The translations under genes and the position numbers were made by a program. This document shows positions 4,606 through 25,489 of a stretch of 39,733 nt of DNA, in pieces. The notes under the pieces were generated by a model. That model saw only the letters and a program-made list of their open reading frames with translations, ran no database searches and was not told the origin of the DNA. The number at the start of each line of letters is the position of its first letter. Positions within the stretch are counted from its first letter, which is position 1. The stretch is from Candidatus Harrisonbacteria bacterium. GTDB lineage: Bacteria; Patescibacteriota; Minisyncoccia; UBA6257; 1-14-0-10-44-23. The DNA is taken from contig JAHFLF010000002.1 of assembly GCA_023255625.1 (NCBI GenBank), positions 1 through 39,733 on the forward strand. Direction: 5' to 3'.

Positions 4606-5349
4606 CTAGACAGATTTTTTGTATCGCTTGGTAATTACATTTAACCAGATTTTGGAATATTCACTTAGACCGGTAAAAAAGGATTGACTGGAACGGTGCG
4701 TGCCCGGATCATAAGCCCAGAATACCGGTACTTCTTTAATTTTATATCCAAGACGGTCTGCGATTACCAGAGCTTCAGTGTCAGTCGCCCAGCTATTCGT
4801 AGTGCAAAGTTTGAATATTTGTTCCGCGCTCGTACCAGAGAACAGCTTAAAACCGCAGCCGGTGTCGCTTATATTCTTGAGCAAAAATATTCTTACGAAT
4901 ATCCGGCCAATTTTTTCGGAGAACCGGCGCCGCGCCCCGGCCGGCGGATCAATTTGCGAGCCCTCCAGAAAGCGAGAGCCAATCGCGATTTCGCAGCCAG
5001 TTGATTTATCAGTTACATAAGGCAGCATTTTTGCGCACTCAACTAGCGTAGTTGAATTATCGGCATCCATGACGAGTCGCCAACTTCCCCGTGCGGCGAG
5101 CATGCCGGTTTTCACAGCGTAACCGCGGCCCAAATTTTCAGAAAGATTAATGACCCGTAAATTTTTAATGATCGCCTGGAATCGTTTTAAAATTTCCGGA
5201 GTATGATCGTGTCCCTGGCTGACAACTACGACGATTTCAGAAACAAAATCTTGCTGTGAAAGATGGCGGTCAACATCAATAAGCGTGAGCGGCAGGCGCG
5301 TCGCTTCGTTGTAGCATGGGATGATTATGGAGAGAAAGGGGCGGGACAT
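4606..5349 (-). CDS. GT2 glycosyltransferase (dolichyl/polyprenyl-phosphate glucosyltransferase-like)
   Basis: MSRPFLSIIIPCYNEATRLP..., NLGRGYAVKTGMLAARGSWRLVMDADNSTT, DTGCGFKLFSG. Confidence 0.85.
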   Translation of the reverse strand: MSRPFLSIIIPCYNEATRLPLTLIDVDRHLSQQDFVSEIVVVVSQGHDHTPEILKRFQAIIKNLRVINLSENLGRGYAVKTGMLAARGSWRLVMDADNSTTLVECAKMLPYVTDKSTGCEIAIGSRFLEGSQIDPPAGARRRFSEKIGRIFVRIFLLKNISDTGCGFKLFSGTSAEQIFKLCTTNSWATDTEALVIADRLGYKIKEVPVFWAYDPGTHRSSQSFFTGLSEYSKIWLNVITKRYKKSV

Positions 5350-5410
5350 GAAAATTTTAGTAAATTTTCACCCCATGAGATGGCGTATCCGCCTATCTCT
5401 TCGGGGTGGC
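5347..5410 (-). promoter_or_regulatory. Two-hairpin leader element abutting the GT2 start codon (copy 2)
   Basis: Minus strand CACCCCGAAGAGATAGGCGGATACGCCATCTCATGGGGTGAAAATTTACTAAAATTTTCATG. Confidence 0.7.
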
Positions 5411-5529
5411 TTTCTAAAACAAGTATAACATAGCCGATGCACCAATTTTTACTCAAGATCGGCCAGGACTTCTTTACGGCCGCCTATGACTAAAAATTAT
5501 TGCGTCGGCCAGCACATCAACTCGCGCCA

Positions 5530-6183
5530 CTACACTTCCAGCACCTCTCCTGGTTTGAGAGGATGGAATACAATACCGGATTCAGCATAAATTTTCCCAT
5601 GTTCACGATATTTAGTCGTGACCCAATCGCTTGTTACAAAACCATCGTGAATTGGAATAATGTGCTGTGGATGAACTTTTAATCCGGTTTCTATTGACTG
5701 CATGGCGGTTCCCCATCCACCGATAAGAGGCAGCGCTAACACTGTTGGAGTTTTCAGAAGATTTTCGATGAAAGCGAATGAGTCTCCGGGATGAAAAAAT
5801 TTGTGATTAATATAAAAACCGTTGCAGAGTGGCGGAGTTATCGGTGACGATGGCGCGTGCGGAGAAATAACGGATGATATAGTGAATCCCGCGATTTCAA
5901 TCGTTTCCGGAATTTTTATTTCGGTCGCCAAAAGTTTTTGTTCGGTTAGATCCACAACAACCTCGCTATTACCTATAATGGTCGGATTATCATGTTTGGC
6001 AATTTCTTGAATTGCCTCGTGCCAACAGTGGTCGCCGTGCGAATGAGTGATTAAAATAATGTCAATTTTTGGCAAGTTTTTTAAAATGCCAGCATCAAAA
6101 CTATAATGGCCCGGATCAATCAAGATTCGTTTGCCATTCTCTTCTACGAGCAAACAAGAATGAAGAAACTTTTGGATTTTCAT
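5530..6183 (-). CDS. MBL-fold metal-dependent hydrolase (UPF0173-like)
   Basis: ILITHSHGDHCWHEA metallo-beta-lactamase motif; IPIHDGF near the C-terminus. Confidence 0.85.
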   Translation of the reverse strand: MKIQKFLHSCLLVEENGKRILIDPGHYSFDAGILKNLPKIDIILITHSHGDHCWHEAIQEIAKHDNPTIIGNSEVVVDLTEQKLLATEIKIPETIEIAGFTISSVISPHAPSSPITPPLCNGFYINHKFFHPGDSFAFIENLLKTPTVLALPLIGGWGTAMQSIETGLKVHPQHIIPIHDGFVTSDWVTTKYREHGKIYAESGIVFHPLKPGEVLEV

Positions 6184-6186
6184 GGT

Positions 6187-6582
6187 CTATATTTTAATCG
6201 CTTCTAATACATAACTACCTTTTAGTATGGATGCCATGCTCTCTATTTCCGCGGCGCTCAGCCACTGTGCATTCATAATCTCATCGACTGGCGGAGAAAG
6301 CTCACCGCTTATCACAATAGCTTCAAAAATGTGAGTTTGGAATTTATGTCCTATCTCGCTTGAGGAGAAACTTCCAATTTTTTTGATAATCCTGATATCA
6401 AACCCAGTTTCTTCTTTAGTTTCTCGTATGACAGCATGCTCCATATCTTCATTCGGATCTACGCGTCCGCCGGGGAAAGTCCAAGTTCCTTTGCTAGGGC
6501 CCTCTGCTTCTTGTAGTAAAAGATAGCGATGATGAGCATCCCTGATTACTGCGCGCCCTCTGTCCAAAGCTAATCTTTCCAT
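6187..6582 (-). CDS. NUDIX hydrolase
   Basis: Nudix box GGRVDPNEDMEHAVIRETKEETGFD. Confidence 0.9.
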   Translation of the reverse strand: MERLALDRGRAVIRDAHHRYLLLQEAEGPSKGTWTFPGGRVDPNEDMEHAVIRETKEETGFDIRIIKKIGSFSSSEIGHKFQTHIFEAIVISGELSPPVDEIMNAQWLSAAEIESMASILKGSYVLEAIKI

Positions 6583-7337
6583 TATGTTAAAATCCGAGGC
6601 CCTTCTTTGGTAATCGCAATTGTTTTTTCAAAATGTGCGGCAATGCTTCCGTCTTTGGTACCGTAACTTTCGTCGGCGAGCTGCACAATTTCGTTTGTTC
6701 CAATCGCGACCATTGGTTCAATCGCGATAACCATGCCCGGCACGAGCTTGGGACCGGTGCCGGGCTTTCCTTCATTGAAAATACTGGGCTCCTCATGCAA
6801 ATTTGTGCCAATGCCGTGGCCGGTTAATCCTTTGACGACATACAGGCCCTGTTTCTTAATAAAGCTACCGACGGCATTACCAATATCGCCCACAGTGTTG
6901 CCATGCTGCGCGGCGTCTATGCCCCGCTGCAGCGCCTCTTCGGTAACGCTGATGAGTTTTTTGAGTTGTGGGGAGACCTCACCTACCGCCACGGTAAAAG
7001 CAGCGTCAGAGTACCAGCCGTTTATTTTGACTCCGCAATCAATGGAGACGATGTCTCCGGCGCGTAGCGCGTAGCTCGTGGGGATGCCGTGCACGACAAC
7101 ATTATTAACCGAGGTGCAGAGTGTGGCGGGATACGGCCGCGTTGCGCCGCTTGGTTTATAGCCAAGAAAAGCTGGTTTCCCGCCAGCAGCTTCAATCAGT
7201 TGCCGCGCGCGTTTATCAAGTTCCAAAAGTGAGAGGCCTGGCCGGATTTCCGCTTTCAGTGTATCTAATACGGTTCGCAGAATTGCGCCAGCGCGGGCCA
7301 TGGTTTCAATCTCTGGCTGACTTTTAACCAATGCCAT
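6582..7337 (-). CDS. map: Type I methionine aminopeptidase
   Basis: GDIVSIDCGVKINGWYSDAAFTVAVG, GHGIGTNLHEEPSI, MVIAIEPM. Confidence 0.95.
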   Translation of the reverse strand: MALVKSQPEIETMARAGAILRTVLDTLKAEIRPGLSLLELDKRARQLIEAAGGKPAFLGYKPSGATRPYPATLCTSVNNVVVHGIPTSYALRAGDIVSIDCGVKINGWYSDAAFTVAVGEVSPQLKKLISVTEEALQRGIDAAQHGNTVGDIGNAVGSFIKKQGLYVVKGLTGHGIGTNLHEEPSIFNEGKPGTGPKLVPGMVIAIEPMVAIGTNEIVQLADESYGTKDGSIAAHFEKTIAITKEGPRILT

Positions 7338-7340
7338 ACA

Positions 7341-8015
7341 TTAGGCAATATGCTTTACAATTTCCGCAAAAATTTTTGGCGGTTCCTGGTCGGCGCTGAT
7401 TGTCACGATTTTCATGCCTTGTTTGCGCAGCTCGTCAAGAATAGGAACGGTGCGGGTGGTGTACTGCTCATAGCGGGTTTTGTAGGTCTCTGGGTTGTCG
7501 TCTTTTCGGATACTTAACTCACCCATACAGATTGGACATGTTTCTACTGGCGAGTTGCTTAAAACCGGTGTTGTGCAGACTGTGCAGGTGCGGCGGATTT
7601 TGTTTCGTCCCGCCGCTATTTCTGGCTTGATGTCCAAATAAAATGCGTGGACGTTTTCTTTTCCGTACAGTTTGTGAAGCGTCTGTAAAAGACCGGCCGT
7701 GTTCTTATTGCCAAATGCCTCATAGAGCGTTCGTGGGCTGCCGCTGTAGACAATGCTCATACCGGCTTTTGCAATTCGCTTAGCACCTTTTTTGAACATG
7801 CCAAGCACCCAGCTCGGAGTGTTTAAAATGCCTTTCTCATTTTGCTCGCGTTCTTTTTTGAGTCGGGCATTATCTTTGTTTGCCGGATCATATAAAATCG
7901 CCCGCAGTTCCTTGCCGCTATCCCAGTGATAAAAACCTTTTGTCCAAGCCAAAAGATTGGCCTGCGTCCCCTTGCCGCTGCCGGGTGTTCCAAAAATGAA
8001 AATAGCTTGCTTCAT
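7341..8015 (-). CDS. adk: Adenylate kinase with Zn-type lid
   Basis: P-loop FGTPGSGKGTQA; lid cysteines CTVC...CPIC. Confidence 0.87.
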   Translation of the reverse strand: MKQAIFIFGTPGSGKGTQANLLAWTKGFYHWDSGKELRAILYDPANKDNARLKKEREQNEKGILNTPSWVLGMFKKGAKRIAKAGMSIVYSGSPRTLYEAFGNKNTAGLLQTLHKLYGKENVHAFYLDIKPEIAAGRNKIRRTCTVCTTPVLSNSPVETCPICMGELSIRKDDNPETYKTRYEQYTTRTVPILDELRKQGMKIVTISADQEPPKIFAEIVKHIA

Positions 8016-8024
8016 AGATCTACG

Positions 8025-8095
8025 AATAACGAATTAATTCACGAAAGTACGAATAGATACAAGGATAACAATTATTCGTACTTTCGTACAGGATT
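8025..8095. repeat. AT-rich inverted repeat upstream of adk
   Basis: ACGAAAGTACGAATA ... TATTCGTACTTTCGT perfect 15-bp arms. Confidence 0.8.
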
Positions 8096-8128
8096 CCTGC
8101 CTACCGGCAGGCAGGCGTAACTCGTTGG

Positions 8129-9415
8129 TCATCCGAGATTATCATTTCTGATAAAAATCCAAAAACCCATCAGCCAATACTTAACCGCTCTTGTAATCTT
8201 AAAAATTGAAAGCAAATAATTAAACTCAACCGCACCTTTCACTACCCAGGCAAAAAAACCGGTAAAAAGTATTGGCCCGAATTTGGCGATAGCGTACTTT
8301 CCGCCGATTGGCAGAATGTAGGGGTAATTTATCGGATGATACTGTTCTGCTCGCACAGTTCGTATTAATTCCTGTTCGGCAAAAATTTCCTGAAGGATAT
8401 TGTGAGCCACTACCCTGCCCTGATTTATGGCCGCTCTGGCAACACCAGGTGTTGGTTTTCCGGTTTTCGGGTCAATAAAAGAGATTGCATCGCCAATACC
8501 ATACACTCTTGTCGCCAAGGAGAGGTCATCTGGTTCGGGCAGGCAGACCATTTCCGGAGTTACTAAAATCCGCGTACCAGACTGATCTTTCTTCAGTTGT
8601 AGTGTATTCATTAGATGATTTGGTGCAACGCCACCGGTCCAGATCAAGACATCAAATGGAATTTTTTCGCCGCTTTGCAAAATTACTTGTTTATCATCGA
8701 CTTGCTGGATTCGTTTACCGGCTAGGGTGACCACGCCAAGTTTTGTCAGCCGTTTTTGCGCATACCGGACAATGCGCGGACTAAAGTTCGAGATAACGCT
8801 TGGGCCCCCGTCAATAATCATCACCTGCTCGGAGCAGTCGCCGCCGAAAATTCGCGGCAATCCTCTCAAAAGATTTTTAATTTCACCGGCCAGCTCAACT
8901 CCGGTCGGCCCGCCGCCGCCGATTATGACCCGCAATGCAGGTTTATCCTCCCCTTCTTCGCATTCAACAATTTTTTCCCGGATTCGGAGTGCGTCAGTGA
9001 ATGTTTTTAGCGGTAAAGCGTGCTCAAGCATGCCCGGAATATTAAAATAATTAACTTGACTGCCGAGTGCCAAGACAAGCCAATCACATCTTAATGCCGT
9101 GCCTGTTTCAAATTTAATCTCGCCACCGATTAAATCTATTTCCGTAACAACACCGGTAACTATTTCAACCGGCAGACCATCTAAAATTTCTTTGATAGAA
9201 AAAGCAACAATCCTTTTCAACTGGCTATTTGAGGCAACGAGGTCGGTCGTCGTCGCAGTTTCGTAAAGCGTTGGCGTAAATGTATGGTAAGTATTTTTGT
9301 CGACGAGAATAATCCGATAGAGTTCCGTTAATTTTCGCCGTTTAATACATTTGGAAATTTTCCGGGCCGTTTGTAGTCCACCAAAACCACCGCCAAGAAT
9401 AAGGATGTTTTTCAT
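8129..9415 (-). CDS. NAD(P)/FAD-dependent oxidoreductase, type II NADH dehydrogenase (NDH-2)
   Basis: ILGGGFGGLQTARKI, second Rossmann VIIGGGGPTGVELAGE, VYGIGDAI; membrane-associating C-terminus. Confidence 0.88.
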   Translation of the reverse strand: MKNILILGGGFGGLQTARKISKCIKRRKLTELYRIILVDKNTYHTFTPTLYETATTTDLVASNSQLKRIVAFSIKEILDGLPVEIVTGVVTEIDLIGGEIKFETGTALRCDWLVLALGSQVNYFNIPGMLEHALPLKTFTDALRIREKIVECEEGEDKPALRVIIGGGGPTGVELAGEIKNLLRGLPRIFGGDCSEQVMIIDGGPSVISNFSPRIVRYAQKRLTKLGVVTLAGKRIQQVDDKQVILQSGEKIPFDVLIWTGGVAPNHLMNTLQLKKDQSGTRILVTPEMVCLPEPDDLSLATRVYGIGDAISFIDPKTGKPTPGVARAAINQGRVVAHNILQEIFAEQELIRTVRAEQYHPINYPYILPIGGKYAIAKFGPILFTGFFAWVVKGAVEFNYLLSIFKITRAVKYWLMGFWIFIRNDNLG

Positions 9416-10415: not shown

Positions 10416-10477
10416 ATCTTACGCGTTTTTAAATTTTGGGCAAGTATCCTATAAAAGAGCAGACAGCGGATTCAAAA

Positions 10478-10517
10478 ATCCCTCACCGCAAGCGGTCCCC
10501 TCCCTTTTTCAAAGGGA
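10478..10517. repeat. Half copy of the CCCTCACCGCAAGCGGTCCCCTCCC repeat
   Basis: tccctcaccgcaagcggtcccctccctttttcaaagggagaatt; same core at 16505-16550 and 19950-19992. Confidence 0.85.
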
Positions 10518-10520
10518 GAA

Positions 10521-11666
10521 TTAACGGATCTCCGCACCAAACTGTTTTTTTGTCTCTTCAATGACTTTGTTTTGCAGCGGTTCAATCTCTTCTACCGTGA
10601 GCGTCCGGTCAATACTGCGGTAGACGATGTGATACGCATAGCTGATTTTGTCCGCGCCAAATTTTTTATCGTTTTCGTATTTATCCAGCAGCGTTACCTC
10701 CTCGGCTAAATCCCCTACAATGTCGCGAATCAAATCAAAATAATTATTTGGAATAAAAGTCTTGGGCACGACAAACGATATGTCACGGGTGATGGCCGGA
10801 TACTTGCTAACCTCTTTGAACTTGTTGCCCAGTTTAAGCTGTTTTTTCACCCGCTCGTCCTGGCTCCAGAGCAGACGGATGTCCGGCAGAGACATGCTAA
10901 CCATCGCCAGCCGTTCCAGTCCAAAACCAAACCACCAGCCGGTGTAATGATCCACGCCGAAGTTTTTGAGCACGCTTTCGCGCGGCACGCCGCAGCCGAG
11001 CATCTCAATCCACTTGCCGTCCTTCTCAATCTCCATCTCCATACTTGGATCGGTGTACGGGAAGTCATCCTTATTAAAGCGATTTTTAACATCTTTGCCG
11101 AAAAGGTTGTGGGAAATATCATTAAGAGCTTCTTTGAGCTTTTCCTGCCAGACCGCTCCGGTATCTTTTTCGGTTTTCGGCACCATGTATCCACCGCCAA
11201 ACTGGTGGAAGACATTCATGTGGCGATTATCAATTTCGTCTTTACGGTAGACTTTGCCGTAGCAGACCACGCCGAATGACTCCCCTTTTGCGATTTTCGT
11301 TTTTATTTCCGGCAGATTTAAATAGTAGTGCCAAAAAACTGTGTCGTGGGTACGCAAAATGTTTTCATCGTTCACATAATAGGTGTCGCTTTTGCTGCGC
11401 GCCGGGTGGCCAGGTGGCATATTAAACAAATCAAAGGTAACACTGGCCGGCACAATCTCCGGAATTTTGATGATGTCAAAACCATCAAGACTTTTTGCGC
11501 TTAGTGCTTTTTGGATGATTTCATACAGCGGGCTGCCTGGCGTGCGCGATAGGTCCGGCATGGCCAAAAACCGCTTCATGCGGAGCGCCTCGGCGTCAGT
11601 TCGTTTTTCTAGTTCTGCCCGAGCAGATTTTTCTTCAGGGGTGTCTATGATGATTTCCCGATGCAT
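10521..11666 (-). CDS. pheS: Single-chain phenylalanyl-tRNA synthetase: PheS-like core fused to a C-terminal FDX-ACB domain
   Basis: HPARSKSDTYYV, GCGVPRESVLKNFGVDHYTGWWFGFGLERLAM; C-terminus FKEVSKYPAITRDISFVVPKT...ISYAYHIVYRSIDRTLTVEEI resembles the FDX-ACB domain usually in PheT. Confidence 0.87.
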   Translation of the reverse strand: MHREIIIDTPEEKSARAELEKRTDAEALRMKRFLAMPDLSRTPGSPLYEIIQKALSAKSLDGFDIIKIPEIVPASVTFDLFNMPPGHPARSKSDTYYVNDENILRTHDTVFWHYYLNLPEIKTKIAKGESFGVVCYGKVYRKDEIDNRHMNVFHQFGGGYMVPKTEKDTGAVWQEKLKEALNDISHNLFGKDVKNRFNKDDFPYTDPSMEMEIEKDGKWIEMLGCGVPRESVLKNFGVDHYTGWWFGFGLERLAMVSMSLPDIRLLWSQDERVKKQLKLGNKFKEVSKYPAITRDISFVVPKTFIPNNYFDLIRDIVGDLAEEVTLLDKYENDKKFGADKISYAYHIVYRSIDRTLTVEEIEPLQNKVIEETKKQFGAEIR

Positions 11667-16119: not shown

Positions 16120-16449
16120 ATGACAAAAATAAACAAAAAGGCGGTACTGCTTGGGCTTGGGGCGACGGCGGTTGCAGCGGCAGCAGCGTATTTTTTAACC
16201 GGTGAGCGCGGCGAAAAGAATCGGCAGAAAATAAAAGTATGGGTTGAGGAGGCAAAAAATGAACTTGTCCGGGAATTAAAAGGTCTTAAGCAGGTCAGCC
16301 AGCAGAGTTATGCTGAAGTAGTTGATGAGGTTATAGGTCGCTATAAGGCCACAAAGGGCGCAACCCCGCGTGAACTTTCCTTGCTTAAAAAAGAGCTTAA
16401 AGCTCACTGGAAAAACATTACCAAGCACGTCGCCGGCGAGCGGGCTTGA
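16120..16449 (+). CDS. YtxH-like small membrane protein
   Basis: MTKINKKAVLLGLGATAVAAAAAYFLTGERGEKNRQKIKVWVEEAKNEL. Confidence 0.7.
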   Translation: MTKINKKAVLLGLGATAVAAAAAYFLTGERGEKNRQKIKVWVEEAKNELVRELKGLKQVSQQSYAEVVDEVIGRYKATKGATPRELSLLKKELKAHWKNITKHVAGERA

Positions 16450-16552
16450 TTCTCCCTTTTATAAAGGGAGTACCGCCAGCAGGCGGGGAGGGATTTGGAA
16501 TCTAAATCCCTCACCGCAAGCGGTCCCCTCCCTTTTATAAAGGGAGAATAAT
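16448..16552. repeat. Full-length approx. 100-bp palindromic repeat (AAAGGGAG/CTCCCTTT family)
   Basis: ttctcccttttataaagggagtaccgccagcaggcggggagggattt...aaatccctcaccgcaagcggtcccctcccttttataaagggagaat; same structure at 19884-19992. Confidence 0.9.
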
Positions 16553-17914: not shown

Positions 17915-19113
17915 GTTACCGCTTCTCTTTGGGTTGGTTTATATCGCCGAAAAATTCTAAAAACCCTGATGGCATCAGGTGTTTTTGTTTTCCAATCCGT
18001 GCTTCACTGGTGAAAAACACTTTTATATGAAAAAAACGCTCCAATCCGAGCTGTCCTGAGTGCGGCGCAGAGTCCCAGAAATTCGGCACCCGCTTAGGGT
18101 TACAGCGATACCGGTGCAACGGAACTCCCCAGCACTCATTTCAAATCAACCACCGGCCCCAGCCTCCGCTCCTGTGGATCGACCACATCGACGGCGTACC
18201 GAGCCGGAAGCTGGCAAACGAATTCGGATACTCCCGAGCCAAGGCGTATCGGCACATTGACGAGGAGATTAGGAAGCTCCCTGCCAGCAACGAGCTGACA
18301 GCTGGCCTCTGCTCCCGCTTCTGCGGCATCCTGATTGTCGATGCCAAATACATCAAGGTCCGTGGCTACCCCAAAAAGATTCCCTTCATCTTCGCCATTG
18401 ATTATTTAACCCATGACATCATCTGCTGTTTGCTGGCTCCCTCAGAAAACCAACTGGCATACGAGAAGTTTTTTGGGATGTTGCGGCGTATGCAGTACCC
18501 GATGAAGATTGTGGTCGCGGATGACAACGGAGCCGTGAGCCCCGCATTATCAAGGGTTTTCCCGCGTGCGGGGCTCCAGACCTGCCAAAACCACTATGTT
18601 GAGAACATGCGCAGAGCCCTCTGTGTCCGGACTGATGAAACTCACCGAGAGTTTTTCTTTTCTCTCAAAAAGCTGGTGTTTGACCAGCACAAGAACTTTG
18701 CACGGCTCCGGGGAGTCCTGCATCATCTGCTCACGAAGTACGCGCTGCACTCTCCGATACGGCAGGAAATTCTTTTGGATATCGAACGCAGGAAGTTCGA
18801 GTTGTTTGCGTATATCGAAATACCACGATGCCCCCGAAACACCAACCTGATCGAACTCTACAACTCCCACTTAAATGGTTGTCTCAAAACTATCAAAGGA
18901 TTCAAGTCGTTCGCCAGCGCTGCGCGCTGGCTCAATGCGTATGTGGTGCGAAGAAGGACCCAGGATTTCACTGATTGCGAAGGACAATTTAAAAACTTAA
19001 ATCATCACTGCTCGCTGGAGCAGACAATCAAAAAACAGGCCGAGTGGCCTGACATATTAACAGAGTTGGGGATTTTAGACCCCCGGAAAACCAACCCGAA
19101 ATGAAGCGGTATC
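17915..19113 (+). mobile_element. Complete insertion sequence, 1199 bp, 9-bp target site duplication
   Basis: Termini GTTACCGCTTCTCTTTGGGTTGGTTT and (reverse complement) GATACCGCTTCATTTCGGGTTGGTTTT; direct repeat CTTGTGCGC at 17906-17914 and 19114-19122. Confidence 0.93.
18027..19104 (+). CDS. IS transposase, Zn-ribbon + DDE/MULE-like core; +1 shift needed at an A7 run after ATG
   Basis: Frame open from 18031: KKRSNPSCPECGAESQKFGTRLGLQRYRCN...FCGILIVDAKYIKVRGYPKKIPFIFAIDY... continuing into the listed 224-aa ORF. ATG AAA AAA A|CGC TCC. Confidence 0.8.
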
Positions 19114-19720: not shown

Positions 19721-20765
19721 GTTGGAGATTGCTGAGCATCACCTTCGTCATCTTTTCCAAATCAAACTCGTGCTTCCAGCCCCAGTCTTTGCGGGCTTGG
19801 GAGTCGTCAATGGAGCGCGGCCAGGAGTCGGCGATTTTTTGGCGGTGGTCGGGACGGTAGGTGACGGTGAGAGGTGGCGTTATTCTCCCTTTCCTAAAGG
19901 GAGTACCGCCAGCAGGCGGGGAGGGATTTCTAGGCGCCGAAGGATTTAAATCCCTCACCGCAAGCGGTCCCCTCCCTTTAGAAAAGGGAGAATGGGACAA
20001 TTGCTTATTGATCTCGGCGGCCAGCTCGTCGGCGCGGAAGCTGATGGCGGCCATGTTGTAGCTGGTGTGCACCGTGAGTTTTTTGGCCGGCGCATCCATC
20101 AGTTTAATGGTGCCGCGAATCGCGTCATCCATATACATCATAGGAAGCACGGTATCTTTTTTAACAAAGCACTCATATGAGCCTTTTGCGAGCGCGTCAT
20201 AAAAAATTCCCACGGCATAGTCGGTTGTGCCGCCGCCCGGCGGAGTCTTCCAGCTGATGAGCCCAGGATAACGGAGAGATCGGATATCAAGGCCGTATTT
20301 GAGGTGGTAGTACTGGCACAATAATTCACCGGCTACTTTGGTCGCGCCGTACATTGTCGTCGGCTCAAGGACTGTCTGTTGCGGAGTCTTGTCACGCGGG
20401 GTGGTCGGGCCAAAGGCGGCGATGGAGCTGGGCCAGAATACACGCAGTTTATATTTTACCGCGAGGTCTAAAATAATTTTCAGACCGTTCATGTTGATGT
20501 CCCAGGCGAGATTCGGGTTTTGCTCCCCTGTTGCTGACAGAAGCGAAACTAAATGAAAGACCGTATCTATCTTGTGCTCCTTGACGATTCGCTCCATTGC
20601 CACTCCATCACGGATGTCGGCGATTTCAAAAATACCCTTAAATCCAGCAGCTGGCTGCCTGTTGTCGTGCGAAACAACTTTAACAACGCCCTTCTTTTTT
20701 GAAAGTGCGGTAACGAGTTCTGATCCAATTTGTCCGAAGGCCCCGGTGACAAGGATATTTTCCAT
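19704..20765 (-). CDS. tdh: SDR-type L-threonine 3-dehydrogenase / NAD-dependent epimerase family, with in-frame repeat insertion
   Basis: MENILVTGAFGQIGSELV..., SLRYPGLISWKTPPGGGTTDYAVGIFYDAL, LPMMYMDDAIRGTIKLM, YRPDHRQKIADSWPRSIDDSQARKDWGW. Confidence 0.87.
   Translation of the reverse strand: MENILVTGAFGQIGSELVTALSKKKGVVKVVSHDNRQPAAGFKGIFEIADIRDGVAMERIVKEHKIDTVFHLVSLLSATGEQNPNLAWDINMNGLKIILDLAVKYKLRVFWPSSIAAFGPTTPRDKTPQQTVLEPTTMYGATKVAGELLCQYYHLKYGLDIRSLRYPGLISWKTPPGGGTTDYAVGIFYDALAKGSYECFVKKDTVLPMMYMDDAIRGTIKLMDAPAKKLTVHTSYNMAAISFRADELAAEINKQLSHSPFSKGRGPLAVRDLNPSAPRNPSPPAGGTPFRKGRITPPLTVTYRPDHRQKIADSWPRSIDDSQARKDWGWKHEFDLEKMTKVMLSNLQHANKR
19884..19992. repeat. Palindromic repeat inserted in frame in tdh
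   Basis: Encodes HSPFSKGRGPLAVRDLNPSAPRNPSPPAGGTPFRKGRI; same family as 16448-16552. Confidence 0.92.
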
Positions 20766-20802: not shown

Positions 20803-20832
20803 TTGACAATTTTTAGTGTGTAGGAATACACT
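20803..20832 (+). promoter_or_regulatory. Sigma70-like promoter for the riboswitch leader
   Basis: TTGACA-18-TACACT. Confidence 0.65.
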
Positions 20833-20856
20833 GGGTGTACTTTGAAATACGAATAA

Positions 20857-20930
20857 TTATTGCAGTCGGGGAAGTTGGGTGAAATTCCCACACAGTACCG
20901 CTACGGTCATAGTCCGAGCGCCGATGCAAT
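20857..20930 (+). promoter_or_regulatory. Cobalamin (B12) riboswitch aptamer core
   Basis: ATTGCAGTCGGGGAAGTTGGGTGAAATTCCCACACAGTACCGCTACGGTCATAGTCCGAGCGCCGATGCAAT: GGGAA..GGTGAAA.UCCC..CCGC.ACGGU..AGUCCGAG.GCC arrangement, B12-box-like segment, enclosing helix. Confidence 0.9.
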
Positions 20931-20995
20931 AAGTTCTTGCTTCTCAGTCCTCGGGTAAGGATTGTGGCACCACATGGCTTAGTCCCCATCTGATG

Positions 20996-21024
20996 TCCCG
21001 CTCTTACATGAGTGGGATTTTTTA
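20996..21024 (+). terminator. Rho-independent terminator of the riboswitch expression platform
   Basis: TCCCGCTCttacatGAGTGGGATTTTTTATTT about 30 nt before the ATG. Confidence 0.85.
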
Positions 21025-21054
21025 TTTAAAATTTTAAATTAAACATTAAAAATT

Positions 21055-22956
21055 ATGCAAAAGCATAGTTTTCAGCGCATCGCGAGCGGTGTATCCTCCT
21101 TCGCTAAAGCTTCGGCGGACAAGCTCGCCTCGCGCAACCTAGTGAGCGGTGTACTCGCTAGCATTCTGACCTTCTCCGTACTTATTCCGGCTATCGTTGC
21201 ATATGGTGGTACGAACGAAGCGGTAACCTATCTACAAAGTAAGCCCCTAAATCCGTGGAGCATTATGGGGCTCGTTGCCTCGGGTCATGTGCCGAGCGAT
21301 TTAAGTTCGTTGACGGGAATTGATAGCGCCAAAGCGATTGATTACGAGGCGCCTACTATGGCGCTTGCAGCCGCAGGAAAAGATCCGCGGACTTACCCGG
21401 CCACTGATTATGTCGCCAAGATAAAAAGTTTTTGGGATGGGACACAGCTTGGCGATGGAGCAAGCGTGAACGATGATATCTTTGGTGCTCTAGCGCTTTC
21501 GGCAGCCGGCGTTGCGAATACTGATCCGGTAATGATCGGACTGAAGTCATACATCACCGCACGACAAAATACTGACGGCGGATTCCCCTTCTCGGTAGCC
21601 GGCAGTTCGGATACAAACATCACTGCGGCGGCGATTATGGCGCTACTAGAAATCGGCACAGCAAAAACAGAGGTTGTTATCACAAAAGCGGTCGGCTATC
21701 TGCAATCAGCGCAAAATGCTGACGGCGGTTTTCCATCTGACCCCCACAGCCCTTGGGGCACGGATTCTGATGCTTCTTCTGATGCGTGGATTCTGATGGC
21801 AATTAATCGTCTCGGAGATTCGCTCTCGTCTTGGACAAAAAATGGCAAAACCCCGCAAGATCATTTGTTGGGACTACAGGCGGAGAGCGGTTTCTTCAAG
21901 TGGCAAAGTGCAAGCGCTGAAGATCAGTTTTCCCCGGCAACGACCGGCTACGCCCTCATTGCCCTTTTAAGCAGATTTTTTCCGGTCGCAAAGTTTACTG
22001 CACCGGTTGCGCCGCATGTTAGTTATCGTATCGCCGGAAGTGTGAATGATTGTATCGGCGAGACCTATGCTATTAATCCACTTGAGCTAGTCAAGAACGC
22101 GGCAGAAAACTGTGGCATTGATTATCATCTTACGCACTACTCATTTGGCGATTATTTGGATCGCATCGGCAGCGATACGGCATCGGGGAACAATGGCTGG
22201 ATGTATTATGTGAATAATGTCAGCCCGAGCGTCGGCGCCGATAGTTATTTACTGAAAGCTGAAGACACTGTTCTTTGGTTCTTCTCGGGCTTTGACGACA
22301 AGATTACGCGCTTACAAATTACAAGCGCTCAAGTCTCAAGTGGCAATGCTGCAATAGTAACGGTTGAGTATTTAGACGGTTCGACCTGGAGGCCGCTTGC
22401 CGGCGCGTCTATACATGCCGGTAATACTGTCGTGGCGACCGGCATTGATGGAAATGGATCACTGACTTTGCCAGACGGTTCATACAAGTTGTATGCGACT
22501 AAAGTTGGCTATGTCCGCAGCGAGCAGCAGACGATTAATTTTGGCGCAACTTCGCAGACAGATTTAAATTTGTCTGCTGATCTCGGCGGCACAGTTATTG
22601 GTGGCAATAACAATGCCGGTGGCAGCGGCACGCTTTCGTTTACTCTGACGCCGGCTGCGGCGGGCAGTGACGGTACATTAAAATTCGGCGCAATCTCGAA
22701 AGGTCAGAATAAAGTTCAAGAGGTGACGATTGCCAACAAGAGTTCTTTGCAAATGTACTTTGAGTCAATCGTCTCTGGCGATAAAGTATTTACGACCTAT
22801 CTGACCGTAGACGGCACAAAGTGGCGTGCGTTTAACGATAAGCTAAATGCAAACGGCACAAAAACATTAAGTGTTGGGTTGAATGTTCCCGCTGATTATC
22901 CGGATTCTGGCGTGAAAGCTGGTAAATTAACTATTTGGGCGGCAAGTGCCAACTAA
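21055..22956 (+). CDS. Secreted prenyltransferase-like alpha-barrel + DUF4430 (transcobalamin-like) protein
   Basis: Signal peptide; repeats RQNTDGGFPFSVAGSSDTNITAAAIMALLEIG and SAQNADGGFPSDPHSPWG; DUF4430-like CIGETYAINPLELVKNAAENCG...NNGWMYYVNNVSPSVGADSYLLKAEDTVLWFFS; carboxypeptidase-regulatory-like domain. Confidence 0.85.
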   Translation: MQKHSFQRIASGVSSFAKASADKLASRNLVSGVLASILTFSVLIPAIVAYGGTNEAVTYLQSKPLNPWSIMGLVASGHVPSDLSSLTGIDSAKAIDYEAPTMALAAAGKDPRTYPATDYVAKIKSFWDGTQLGDGASVNDDIFGALALSAAGVANTDPVMIGLKSYITARQNTDGGFPFSVAGSSDTNITAAAIMALLEIGTAKTEVVITKAVGYLQSAQNADGGFPSDPHSPWGTDSDASSDAWILMAINRLGDSLSSWTKNGKTPQDHLLGLQAESGFFKWQSASAEDQFSPATTGYALIALLSRFFPVAKFTAPVAPHVSYRIAGSVNDCIGETYAINPLELVKNAAENCGIDYHLTHYSFGDYLDRIGSDTASGNNGWMYYVNNVSPSVGADSYLLKAEDTVLWFFSGFDDKITRLQITSAQVSSGNAAIVTVEYLDGSTWRPLAGASIHAGNTVVATGIDGNGSLTLPDGSYKLYATKVGYVRSEQQTINFGATSQTDLNLSADLGGTVIGGNNNAGGSGTLSFTLTPAAAGSDGTLKFGAISKGQNKVQEVTIANKSSLQMYFESIVSGDKVFTTYLTVDGTKWRAFNDKLNANGTKTLSVGLNVPADYPDSGVKAGKLTIWAASAN

Positions 22957-22967
22957 ATTATAGAAGT

Positions 22968-23513
22968 ATGAATTATGAAGTAAGAAGTAGGATTGCAGCC
23001 CTAGCGATAACAATCGCGATTTCCCTTGTTCCACTCGCCGCCGGCGCGATCGGAGTCAGCGTTACGCCGGCCAAGGCCGCAATTACCGTTGCTGCCAATG
23101 AGACTGCGACGATTCGGCTGAATGTTGCCAACCCATCCAAGGATGTTGCAATCTTTGAGGTCTACCCTGATGCGCTTGAACAGCTAATCAGTGTTACGCC
23201 GGCTAGCTTTACGCTAGAGGCGGGGGCGGAGCGGTTTGTTGAGGTCTCTGTACGCGGCGAAAAGGAAGCGAGTATGACCGCAGATATTTCTGTTGTTGCG
23301 CGTCCCCTTGCAGACAATACCTTTCAGCAAGGCACCGGCATCAAAGTCCCGGTGGCGATTACCGTTACGGCACAATCAATTGGTGTTGCAAGCGTCTTTG
23401 ATACGCTTGCCACAAGCCCCTGGACCGGAGCGGTTGCTCTCGCAATTATTGTCGGATTTGCGGCGTATAAGTTAGGCGGGCGAAAAAAGAAAAGCAGTCT
23501 GGCGAAAAATTAA
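22968..23513 (+). CDS. Secreted/membrane-anchored beta-sandwich protein with C-terminal TM and basic tail
   Basis: Signal peptide; VTPAKAAITVAANETATIRLNVANPSKDVAIFEVYPDAL; TM then GGRKKKSSLAKN. Confidence 0.75.
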   Translation: MNYEVRSRIAALAITIAISLVPLAAGAIGVSVTPAKAAITVAANETATIRLNVANPSKDVAIFEVYPDALEQLISVTPASFTLEAGAERFVEVSVRGEKEASMTADISVVARPLADNTFQQGTGIKVPVAITVTAQSIGVASVFDTLATSPWTGAVALAIIVGFAAYKLGGRKKKSSLAKN

Positions 23514-23576: not shown

Positions 23577-23614
23577 AAAACATCAAACCGCCCGAAAGGG
23601 CGGTTTGATGTTTT
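23577..23614. terminator. Bidirectional intrinsic terminator
   Basis: AAAACATCAAACCGCCCGAAAGGGCGGTTTGATGTTTT. Confidence 0.9.
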
Positions 23615-23949
23615 AAGTCATTGGTGGGGCCTCGCTTGTAGTACAAGCTCGGCCCCGGCGGGTGCGTGGACTTCGGTCCGAGTGTCGAGTTGACTACCTC
23701 GGCTAGGAAAAAACAAAATCTTCGGTGCATTGCAGGTTATGAGGCGTAGTGGGCGCACAAGACCGCCCCCTGTCCGATGGAAGCCGGATCCTCTCGCCGA
23801 TAGATCGAGAAAACCCTAGCCAATGCTGCCGAAAATATGCAAATCCTAGGCATCGCCAGGTTCATCGCTTGGTCGCGCCAAAACGAACTGATGTCGTGTC
23901 CCCCTTCGTCGGTTGAAGGGTCCCTCGCATCATTTTCCGTCCACGCAAG
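23615..23949 (-). ncRNA. Candidate structured ncRNA downstream of gatA
   Basis: Promoter TTGGCA-17-TAGGGT overlapping the gatA stop; closing helix GCGTGGAC(23939-23946)/GTCCACGC(23664-23671); hairpin GGGGCC..GGCCCC; terminator at 23577-23614. Confidence 0.62.
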
Positions 23950-23953
23950 ACTT

Positions 23954-25489
23954 TTACCCTAGCACGGGATGTTTCCTGTGCCAATCAGTTGTCTGCTGGT
24001 AAGCGTACCCGACATTAAAAATCTTTTGCTCGCCCCACTGCGGGCCGATGATTTGCAAACCAACGGGCATGGGGGAGGAGTGAGTAGTTGGTAGTGAGTA
24101 GTTGGTAGCTGATGGGGAATCTTTGGGAACGACAAAGCCGCACGGGATTGAGAGTGCGGGCAAGCCGGCAAGAGAGCTTGGGATATTCAGCTGGTCGGCA
24201 ATATAGCCAAAGAGTGGGTTTCCGGCGGCTGCGCCCAGTGTCTCTGCAACGGTTGGCACGGACGGGCAGCAGAGCACATCAACAGTTTTGAACACTTCGG
24301 CAAACTCGTTAATGATCAACCCGCGCACGCGCTGCGCTTTTTTGTAGTAGGCGTCGTAGTAACCGTGGCTTAAGACATATGTGCCGGTTAAAATACGCCG
24401 TTGCGCCTCAAGACCAAATCCTTCGCCGCGGGTTTTAGTGTACACCTCCAGCAAATTATTCGCATTTTTTGAGCTCTCCGGAAAACGGATGCCGTCGTAA
24501 CGAGCCAAGTTAGAACTAATCTCTGACGGGCAGATAATTGCATAGACTAACGCTCCATATTTTGTGTTTGGCAGATGCACCTCAACCAGCGTTGCGCCAC
24601 GCTTTTCTAATTCTTTAATGCCCTCCATCACGCGCGCTTTAACATCCGGGTCCATGCCGTCAATAAAGTATTCCGCCGGGATTCCAACTTTGACGCCTTT
24701 CAAATCAGCATTTAAATTTTTGGCATACGCCTCAACCGGCGCGGTGCCTGTAGTTGAGTCGTGCCCCCAATCCTTGCCGGAGAGTATCTCGGCGGTAAGT
24801 GCCAGGTCGCTCACTGAGTATGCCATCGTGCCGATTGAATCTAACGACGAGGCCATTGAAATAACGCCGTGTCGCGAGACGCGGCCGTAGGTCGGTTTCC
24901 AGCCGGAGATGCCGCAGAGACTTGATGGTTGGCGGATTGATCCGCCAGTTTCAGTCGCAAGTGCAAATGGTGCGATGCCAGCGGCAACAGCTGCTGAAGA
25001 ACCGCCGGATGATCCGCCGGGCATGCGGCTTACATCCCACGGATTGTGCGACGGCCCATATGCCGAGGTTTCGGTTGAGGAGCCATGTGCAAATTCATCC
25101 AGGTTGGTTTTGCCAAGCAACACGCTCCCCTGCGCATTGAGTTTTTCAATCACTGTGGCGTCGTGCGTTGGCACGTATTGATCTAAAATTTTTGATGAGG
25201 CGGTCGTGCGAATGCCTTTGGTGCAGAAGAGGTCTTTAGCGGCGTATGGAATGCCGAGGAGAGGGGGCGTTAGTTGGTTAGTTAGTTGATTGGTTAGTTG
25301 GTTAAGACGGGTGTCGGCGGCTTTCGCTTGAGCTAAAGCGTGATCTTCGCAAACGGTTAGGTAGGCGTTTAATTGCGGATTCAGTTTTTTTATACGCGCC
25401 AAAAAATAGCTTGTCAGTTCAACTGATGAAACTTTTTTTTGATCAAGCAGCGTGCGTAGCTCGGTGAGTTCTAGGTATTCGTAGTTCAT
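23954..25489 (-). CDS. gatA: Asp/Glu-tRNA amidotransferase subunit A
   Basis: Amidase signature GGSSGGSSAAVAAGIAPFALATETGGSIRQPSSLCG; PTYGRVSRHGVISMASSLDSIG. Confidence 0.96.
   Translation of the reverse strand: MNYEYLELTELRTLLDQKKVSSVELTSYFLARIKKLNPQLNAYLTVCEDHALAQAKAADTRLNQLTNQLTNQLTPPLLGIPYAAKDLFCTKGIRTTASSKILDQYVPTHDATVIEKLNAQGSVLLGKTNLDEFAHGSSTETSAYGPSHNPWDVSRMPGGSSGGSSAAVAAGIAPFALATETGGSIRQPSSLCGISGWKPTYGRVSRHGVISMASSLDSIGTMAYSVSDLALTAEILSGKDWGHDSTTGTAPVEAYAKNLNADLKGVKVGIPAEYFIDGMDPDVKARVMEGIKELEKRGATLVEVHLPNTKYGALVYAIICPSEISSNLARYDGIRFPESSKNANNLLEVYTKTRGEGFGLEAQRRILTGTYVLSHGYYDAYYKKAQRVRGLIINEFAEVFKTVDVLCCPSVPTVAETLGAAAGNPLFGYIADQLNIPSSLAGLPALSIPCGFVVPKDSPSATNYSLPTTHSSPMPVGLQIIGPQWGEQKIFNVGYAYQQTTDWHRKHPVLG

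Follow-up and report, generated by a model that had tools for sequence, protein, structure and literature searches.

How a bacterium with a reduced genome might acquire vitamin B12 (cobalamin) is the question raised by a locus of Candidatus Harrisonbacteria bacterium (assembly GCA_023255625.1), in which a cobalamin riboswitch precedes the gene of a protein that resembles, in its predicted fold, the animal B12 carriers. The locus occupies positions 20803-23513 of a stretch of 39,733 nucleotides (nt) of contig JAHFLF010000002.1 that was analysed as a whole and is called the window here. We consider it very probable that the locus is a corrinoid capture module, induced by B12 starvation, within a B12-scavenging route that would feed the class II ribonucleotide reductase (RNR), with corrinoid binding and transport as its predicted activities. 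The predicted regulation of the capture gene by the riboswitch, the predicted fold of the capture protein and the gene linkage across relatives are each well supported by computation.

The original prediction had placed a cobalamin aptamer core and a downstream intrinsic terminator in the leader, and both were recovered (Table 1). The match to RF01689 is above the gathering score of 36.5 (E 7.8e-12, cmscan of the whole window), covers the full-length model (positions 1-81) and is the single RF01689 site that a covariance-model search located in the 931,659-base genome. In the scanned region, 5 promoter-like sites were observed versus 3.3 ± 2.2 expected from shuffles, and 5 terminator-like sites versus 3.1 ± 1.9. 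Because neither type of site is by itself above chance, the promoter and the terminator count solely through their placement about the aptamer and the gene, the terminator lying between the two. An anti-hemB match from Rfam in the leader (17.5 bits) was below the cut-off and was disregarded.

Table 1. Features of the cobalamin-riboswitch locus, in coordinates of the window.
Feature	Position	Strand	Basis
Sigma-70-like promoter site, TTGACA-18-TACACT	20803..20832	+	Consensus scan, 10/12 matches
AdoCbl-II cobalamin riboswitch aptamer (RF01689)	20858..20931	+	cmscan, 58.0 bits
Intrinsic terminator hairpin, presumed expression platform	20995..21018	+	9-pair stem, T-rich tail, -15.5 kcal/mol
Transcobalamin-like capture protein, 633 amino acids (aa)	21055..22956	+	Pfam, AlphaFold, Foldseek
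Presumed membrane anchor/partner, 181 aa, ASH-like beta-sandwich and C-terminal transmembrane (TM) segment	22968..23513	+	Weak ASH / choice-of-anchor matches

The capture protein consists of a predicted N-terminal export segment, an alpha6/alpha6 toroid (residues ~53-315), a DUF4430 domain (~320-415) and two further beta domains, one CarboxypepD_reg-like, with a match below the Pfam cut-off, and one ASH-like. Pfam assigned DUF4430 (PF14478) with 41.5 bits against a cut-off of 23.8, and SQHop_cyclase_C with 35 bits against one of 26.1. The Gly-rich repeats of the original prediction correspond to QNxDGG motifs of the alpha/alpha toroid, whose NCBIfam relative is SCO2321, a name for which a literature search returned no relevant paper. 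A profile of the capture family also draws transcobalamin-2 over the DUF4430 part (E 0.1). Both the capture protein and the product of the gene behind it would be exported, judging from their hydrophobic N-termini. The closest named relative, a Candidatus Harrisonbacteria genome (L089), is 52% identical, which places the window in the Patescibacteria (candidate phyla radiation); equal match position and identity suggest that this locus is probably contig 13 of the congener G003.

An alignment of 39 relatives served as input for an AlphaFold2 model of the capture protein, which reached a predicted local distance difference test score (pLDDT) of 87.7. In a Foldseek search of the PDB with this model, each of the 15 best matches was a transcobalamin, an intrinsic factor or a haptocorrin, with E from 7.8e-12 to 5.7e-10 and alignments of 417-446 columns that span both the toroid and DUF4430, and cyclases and prenyltransferases ranked behind them, from E 2.3e-7. 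The toroid is supported by both the high-confidence model and the fold search, and the pairing of a barrel with a DUF4430-like domain that had been proposed from the letters alone was borne out by the predicted fold.

Cobalamin riboswitches above the cut-off, from three Rfam classes, lie just upstream of capture homologues, or of a DUF4430 gene that precedes these, in many Patescibacteria. They belong to the AdoCbl-II class at L018, L020, L022, L090 and L107, to the AdoCbl class at L014, L015, L091, L094, L102, L115, L117 and L118, and to the Cobalamin class at L013, L028, L031, L034, L097, L106, L110 and L112; some contigs were reached by two routes (e.g. as L013 and as L112), and not every locus is therefore independent. 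Outside the phylum, a Cobalamin riboswitch lies upstream in the Solirubrobacterales relative L134. Predicted B12 control of the capture gene is conserved while the riboswitch class varies. In our sample of 384 Patescibacteria genomes, 26 of the 67 strong cobalamin riboswitches have a gene for a capture, DUF4430 or DUF6580 protein within 3 kb downstream on the same strand, and some of the others, as judged from the sequences, precede a PduO adenosyltransferase (L135, L137, L142) or NrdJ (L140, L155).

As a separate observation, Cobalamin riboswitches of other Patescibacteria precede open reading frames (ORFs) of ~260-440 aa without an above-cut-off Pfam family at L135, L142, L151, L161, L165, L166, L180, L185 and L190, and also at L137, L149 and L164. 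Nine of these ORFs fall into one similarity cluster and three more into a second; a 'WxSPP' stretch marks them, several have a CPxC zinc-ribbon at the C-terminus, and they appear to form a B12-regulated family without assigned function. Unrelated ORFs of ~400-500 aa follow cobalamin riboswitches at L152, L153, L154, L158, L159, L162, L173, L183, L184 and L187, and none of the four that were scanned (L154, L162, L184, L187) has a Pfam family above the cut-off.

Genome checks for class II RNR, and for other B12 enzymes and BtuBFCD, had been suggested along with the original prediction; the former returned NrdJ, and the latter returned a CobA adenosyltransferase and no true BtuC. The host genome is estimated to be 95% complete, and gene absences were assessed by targeted family searches. 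Among the RNR classes searched, I and II, the class I small subunit NrdB was not found in this genome; CbiC was not found there either, nor was BtuC (PF01032), for which the best match reached only 20.5 bits, below the cut-off. We rejected this FecCD match as a BtuC on account of its score and of its neighbours, permease and binding-protein ORFs that by eye resemble a branched-chain amino-acid ATP-binding cassette system. Across the 384 genomes, class II RNR exceeded the cut-off in 233.

Besides the capture protein, the host genome encodes a small DUF4430 protein of 146 aa that adjoins a DUF6580 membrane protein (C12:114.9-115.9 kb; the DUF6580 copy is at L067:6871-7428, - strand), and comparison with relatives ties this pair to the capture locus. 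In G003, an AdoCbl-II riboswitch (54.2 bits) lies 3′ of DUF4430-DUF6580 at a contig end, and the capture gene begins 13 nt into another contig. Because the epimerase and gatA genes that flank them resemble those around the window locus, the G003 order is likely to be epimerase / DUF4430 - DUF6580 - riboswitch - capture - anchor / gatA, joined across the contig break. At L094, one uninterrupted stretch comprises riboswitch, capture, anchor, DUF4430 and DUF6580, and L115 carries PduO, NrdJ, riboswitch, capture, DUF4430 and DUF6580. NrdR-NrdJ-CobA-DUF4430-DUF6580 forms one run, at times with inserted genes, at L074, L075, L077, L079, L082 and L086 (checked by Pfam on L075 and L086).

Of the genomes that have DUF6580 and for which an NrdJ is listed, 47 in all, 33 have the two within 5 kb of each other on the same strand, compared with a chance of ~1% per genome, and in 32 of those 33 DUF6580 is downstream of NrdJ. 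The best 30 DUF6580 loci include 22 with an adjacent DUF4430 and 18 with an adenosyltransferase (16 CobA, 2 PduO). DUF6580 exceeded the cut-off in 108 of the 384 genomes, and strong NrdJ matches occur in 93 of these 108 versus 171 of the 276 others (Fisher p 2.5e-6, from hand-compiled counts uncorrected for phylogeny). At one further locus (L069, genome G332, 5503-8880), a DUF6580 ORF lies directly 3′ of NrdJ and is followed by a 126-aa ORF that also matches NrdJ, which might mean that the C-terminus of NrdJ is split or duplicated on either side of DUF6580.

A DUF6580 profile built from 28 members had a sole match among PDB sequences, 6fnp_A (E 1.2e-5); the 6FNP structure is the energy-coupling factor (ECF) transporter for vitamin B12, ECF-CbrT (PMC5997447). 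The matched stretch is an ECF S-component by Pfam (ECF_trnsprt, 45 bits), which together with the chain length suggests that 6fnp_A is the CbrT chain. In Foldseek, a DUF6580 model from six sequences (pLDDT 78) was nearest to the S-components ThiT and RibU (TM 0.53-0.63, probability up to 0.93, E above 0.5). Because no match to EcfT (PF02361) was obtained in the host genome, in a search in which 10 of 14 controls were positive, DUF6580 would act alone. No cysteine is conserved among the 28 DUF6580 sequences. Their alignment contains a nearly invariant R-x-x-P-H-x-x-N motif near the N-terminus, and its histidine (H24) might be a cobalt ligand, in the role of the cysteine of BtuM.

We infer the following course of switching, binding, hand-over and transport. 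When cellular cobalamin is low, transcription would read through the terminator; when it is plentiful, the liganded aptamer would favour termination, a direction suggested by the riboswitch class. As in intrinsic factor and transcobalamin, the toroid and the DUF4430 domain of the exported capture protein would enclose a corrinoid, with the protein held on the cell surface by its own ASH-like C-terminal domain, by the TM partner, or by both. The corrinoid would then be handed to the small membrane-bound DUF4430 protein and to DUF6580, a putatively S-component-like membrane protein that would need no ECF module to bring it into the cell, and CobA would adenosylate it to the adenosylcobalamin used by NrdJ.

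Several results weigh against this scheme. Minimum free energy folding of the leader revealed no competing anti-terminator, and the unliganded minimum free energy structure disrupts the aptamer yet retains the terminator. Global TM-scores of the capture protein to transcobalamin are low (0.37-0.44 by target, with a root-mean-square deviation of about 22 A) because of its two extra beta domains and a different relative placement of domains. The Pfam model of the animal family, Cobalamin_bind, is absent from the match list of the capture protein to E 1, and we therefore call it transcobalamin-like and not a member of that family. In the host, the DUF4430-DUF6580 pair lies on the same contig as the window locus at a distance of 94 kb and is not adjacent to it. 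The 28-bit sequence match between DUF6580 and CbrT is weak and affected by composition bias (bias 13), and because no Pfam cross-hit connects the 6fnp_A chain with DUF6580, the link is profile-to-sequence only; the E values of the fold matches of DUF6580 add to these points.

Neither the fold nor the riboswitch fixes the ligand, so the capture protein might prefer another corrinoid, such as cobinamide, pseudocobalamin or the cobamides of neighbours, and the module would then salvage precursors or analogues and not B12 itself. ECF-CbrT takes up cobinamide as well as cobalamin (PMC5997447), and the link of DUF6580 to CbrT fits either; we set against this that CobA and NrdJ, which adjoin DUF6580 in many relatives, require merely a corrinoid for adenosylation, and we regard the substitution as unlikely. 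The locus could also be read as encoding a surface adhesin or structural protein that is induced by B12 shortage, for instance to contact a B12-producing host cell, and that binds no corrinoid. Bacteria of the candidate phyla radiation are commonly epibionts, and the ASH/choice-of-anchor-like domains of the capture protein and its partner are typical of surface proteins. Among the fold matches, however, the pairing of toroid and DUF4430 is specific to B12 carriers, and adhesion leaves unexplained that CobA and NrdJ are found clustered with stand-alone DUF4430 and with DUF6580, which makes an adhesin decidedly improbable. That the top sequence matches of the toroid are squalene-hopene cyclases could point to a terpene-cyclase or prenyltransferase-type enzyme, a reading that we rejected and consider scarcely credible: the window protein has no DxDD motif (the string D.DD occurs in 5 of the 39 relatives, at scattered positions), it is apparently exported and fused to DUF4430, B12 carriers outrank cyclases in the fold search, and the gene is under a cobalamin riboswitch. 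We retain corrinoid capture for class II RNR as the preferred explanation.

The gene downstream of the capture gene had been proposed to encode a protein that anchors the capture protein or hands over its ligand. Its product has weak ASH / choice-of-anchor beta-sandwich matches and, on direct reading, a hydrophobic C-terminal stretch with RKKK behind it. A homologue stands 3′ of the capture gene in 26 relatives (L089-L112, L117, L120), and several shorter or more distant relatives have no such gene. The product is plausibly the tether of the capture protein; for the hand-over, the small DUF4430 protein and DUF6580 are better candidates. Between the anchor gene and gatA, which abut in the congener (L003), 351 nt on the - strand (23610-23960) fold better than 100 of 100 shuffles (z -3.57) and match no Rfam family, and a structured RNA is possible there.

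Elsewhere in the window, a 120-nt direct repeat occurs in identical copies at 1-120 and 18994-19113; the contig starts inside one copy, and a transposase-like ORF (18430-19104) lies near the second. Two 74-nt elements (1796-1869 and 5347-5420) are 84% identical and look like a shared leader; each lies immediately 5′ of a start codon, in one case that of seryl-tRNA ligase and in the other that of a glycosyltransferase, two genes of the - strand. Palindromic repeats with the pattern CTCCCTTT..AAAGGGAG, which resemble repetitive extragenic palindromes, are scattered over 10472-10521, 16438-16549 and 19871-19993.

The closest known systems include the animal carriers transcobalamin, intrinsic factor and haptocorrin (PDB 8ixu, 4zrp, 3kq4, 4kki), which have, like the capture protein, an alpha6/alpha6 toroid and behind it a DUF4430-type beta domain; the capture protein differs in having ~14% identity to them, two extra C-terminal beta domains, predicted bacterial surface anchoring and riboswitch control. 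BtuG of Bacteroides has a beta-propeller fold, unlike the capture protein, is partnered with the outer-membrane BtuB and is not homologous to the capture protein. Surface B12-binding lipoproteins of its kind work similarly, in that they take up B12 on the cell surface before membrane transport (PMC6143338). ECF-CbrT, the only PDB sequence match of DUF6580, whose own model lies nearest to S-components, uses an ECF module, whereas no EcfT was found in the host genome. Because solitary CbrT did not support the growth of Escherichia coli on B12 (PMC5997447), an ECF-free DUF6580 would need to work differently from CbrT. BtuM, for which solitary action without an ECF module has been proposed (PMC6072759, PMC11109136), resembles DUF6580 as a predicted S-component-type B12 uptake protein without that module, but binds cobalt via an essential Cys80 (PMC6072759), where DUF6580 has its near-invariant histidine instead.

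In Lacticaseibacillus, a DUF4430 gene lies beside the class II RNR gene rtpR (PMC9963975). The same source also has an entry for an 'additional lipoprotein component of putative cobalamin ECF transporter', which it does not state to be the DUF4430 protein. Given these two entries, an involvement of DUF4430 lipoproteins in B12 uptake would not be entirely novel; the proximity of DUF4430 to class II RNR is shared with our loci, and neither the toroid domain nor DUF6580 is mentioned there. In the open-access literature, DUF4430 and cobalamin are seldom mentioned together, and we found no description of a toroid-DUF4430 capture protein in Patescibacteria, of an NrdJ-CobA-DUF4430-DUF6580 operon or of DUF6580 as a B12 carrier, DUF6580 being named in no paper. 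What would be new is the joining of transcobalamin-type capture to DUF6580 as a solitary, S-component-like family. About evenly poised, in our judgement, is the wider proposal that intrinsic-factor-type surface capture passes corrinoids to a membrane DUF4430 protein and on to a solitary DUF6580 without an ECF ATPase module, in the service of class II RNR, and that animal B12 carriers share ancestry with this bacterial family.

The open literature searched offers no explanation of how Patescibacteria with reduced genomes, most of which have class II RNR in our sample, acquire B12. The locus provides a regulated and testable four-protein candidate for that acquisition, with a predicted function for DUF6580 and for stand-alone DUF4430 proteins. 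For the origin of the animal carriers it is relevant that bacteria would have an architecture of the intrinsic-factor/transcobalamin kind that B12 controls directly.
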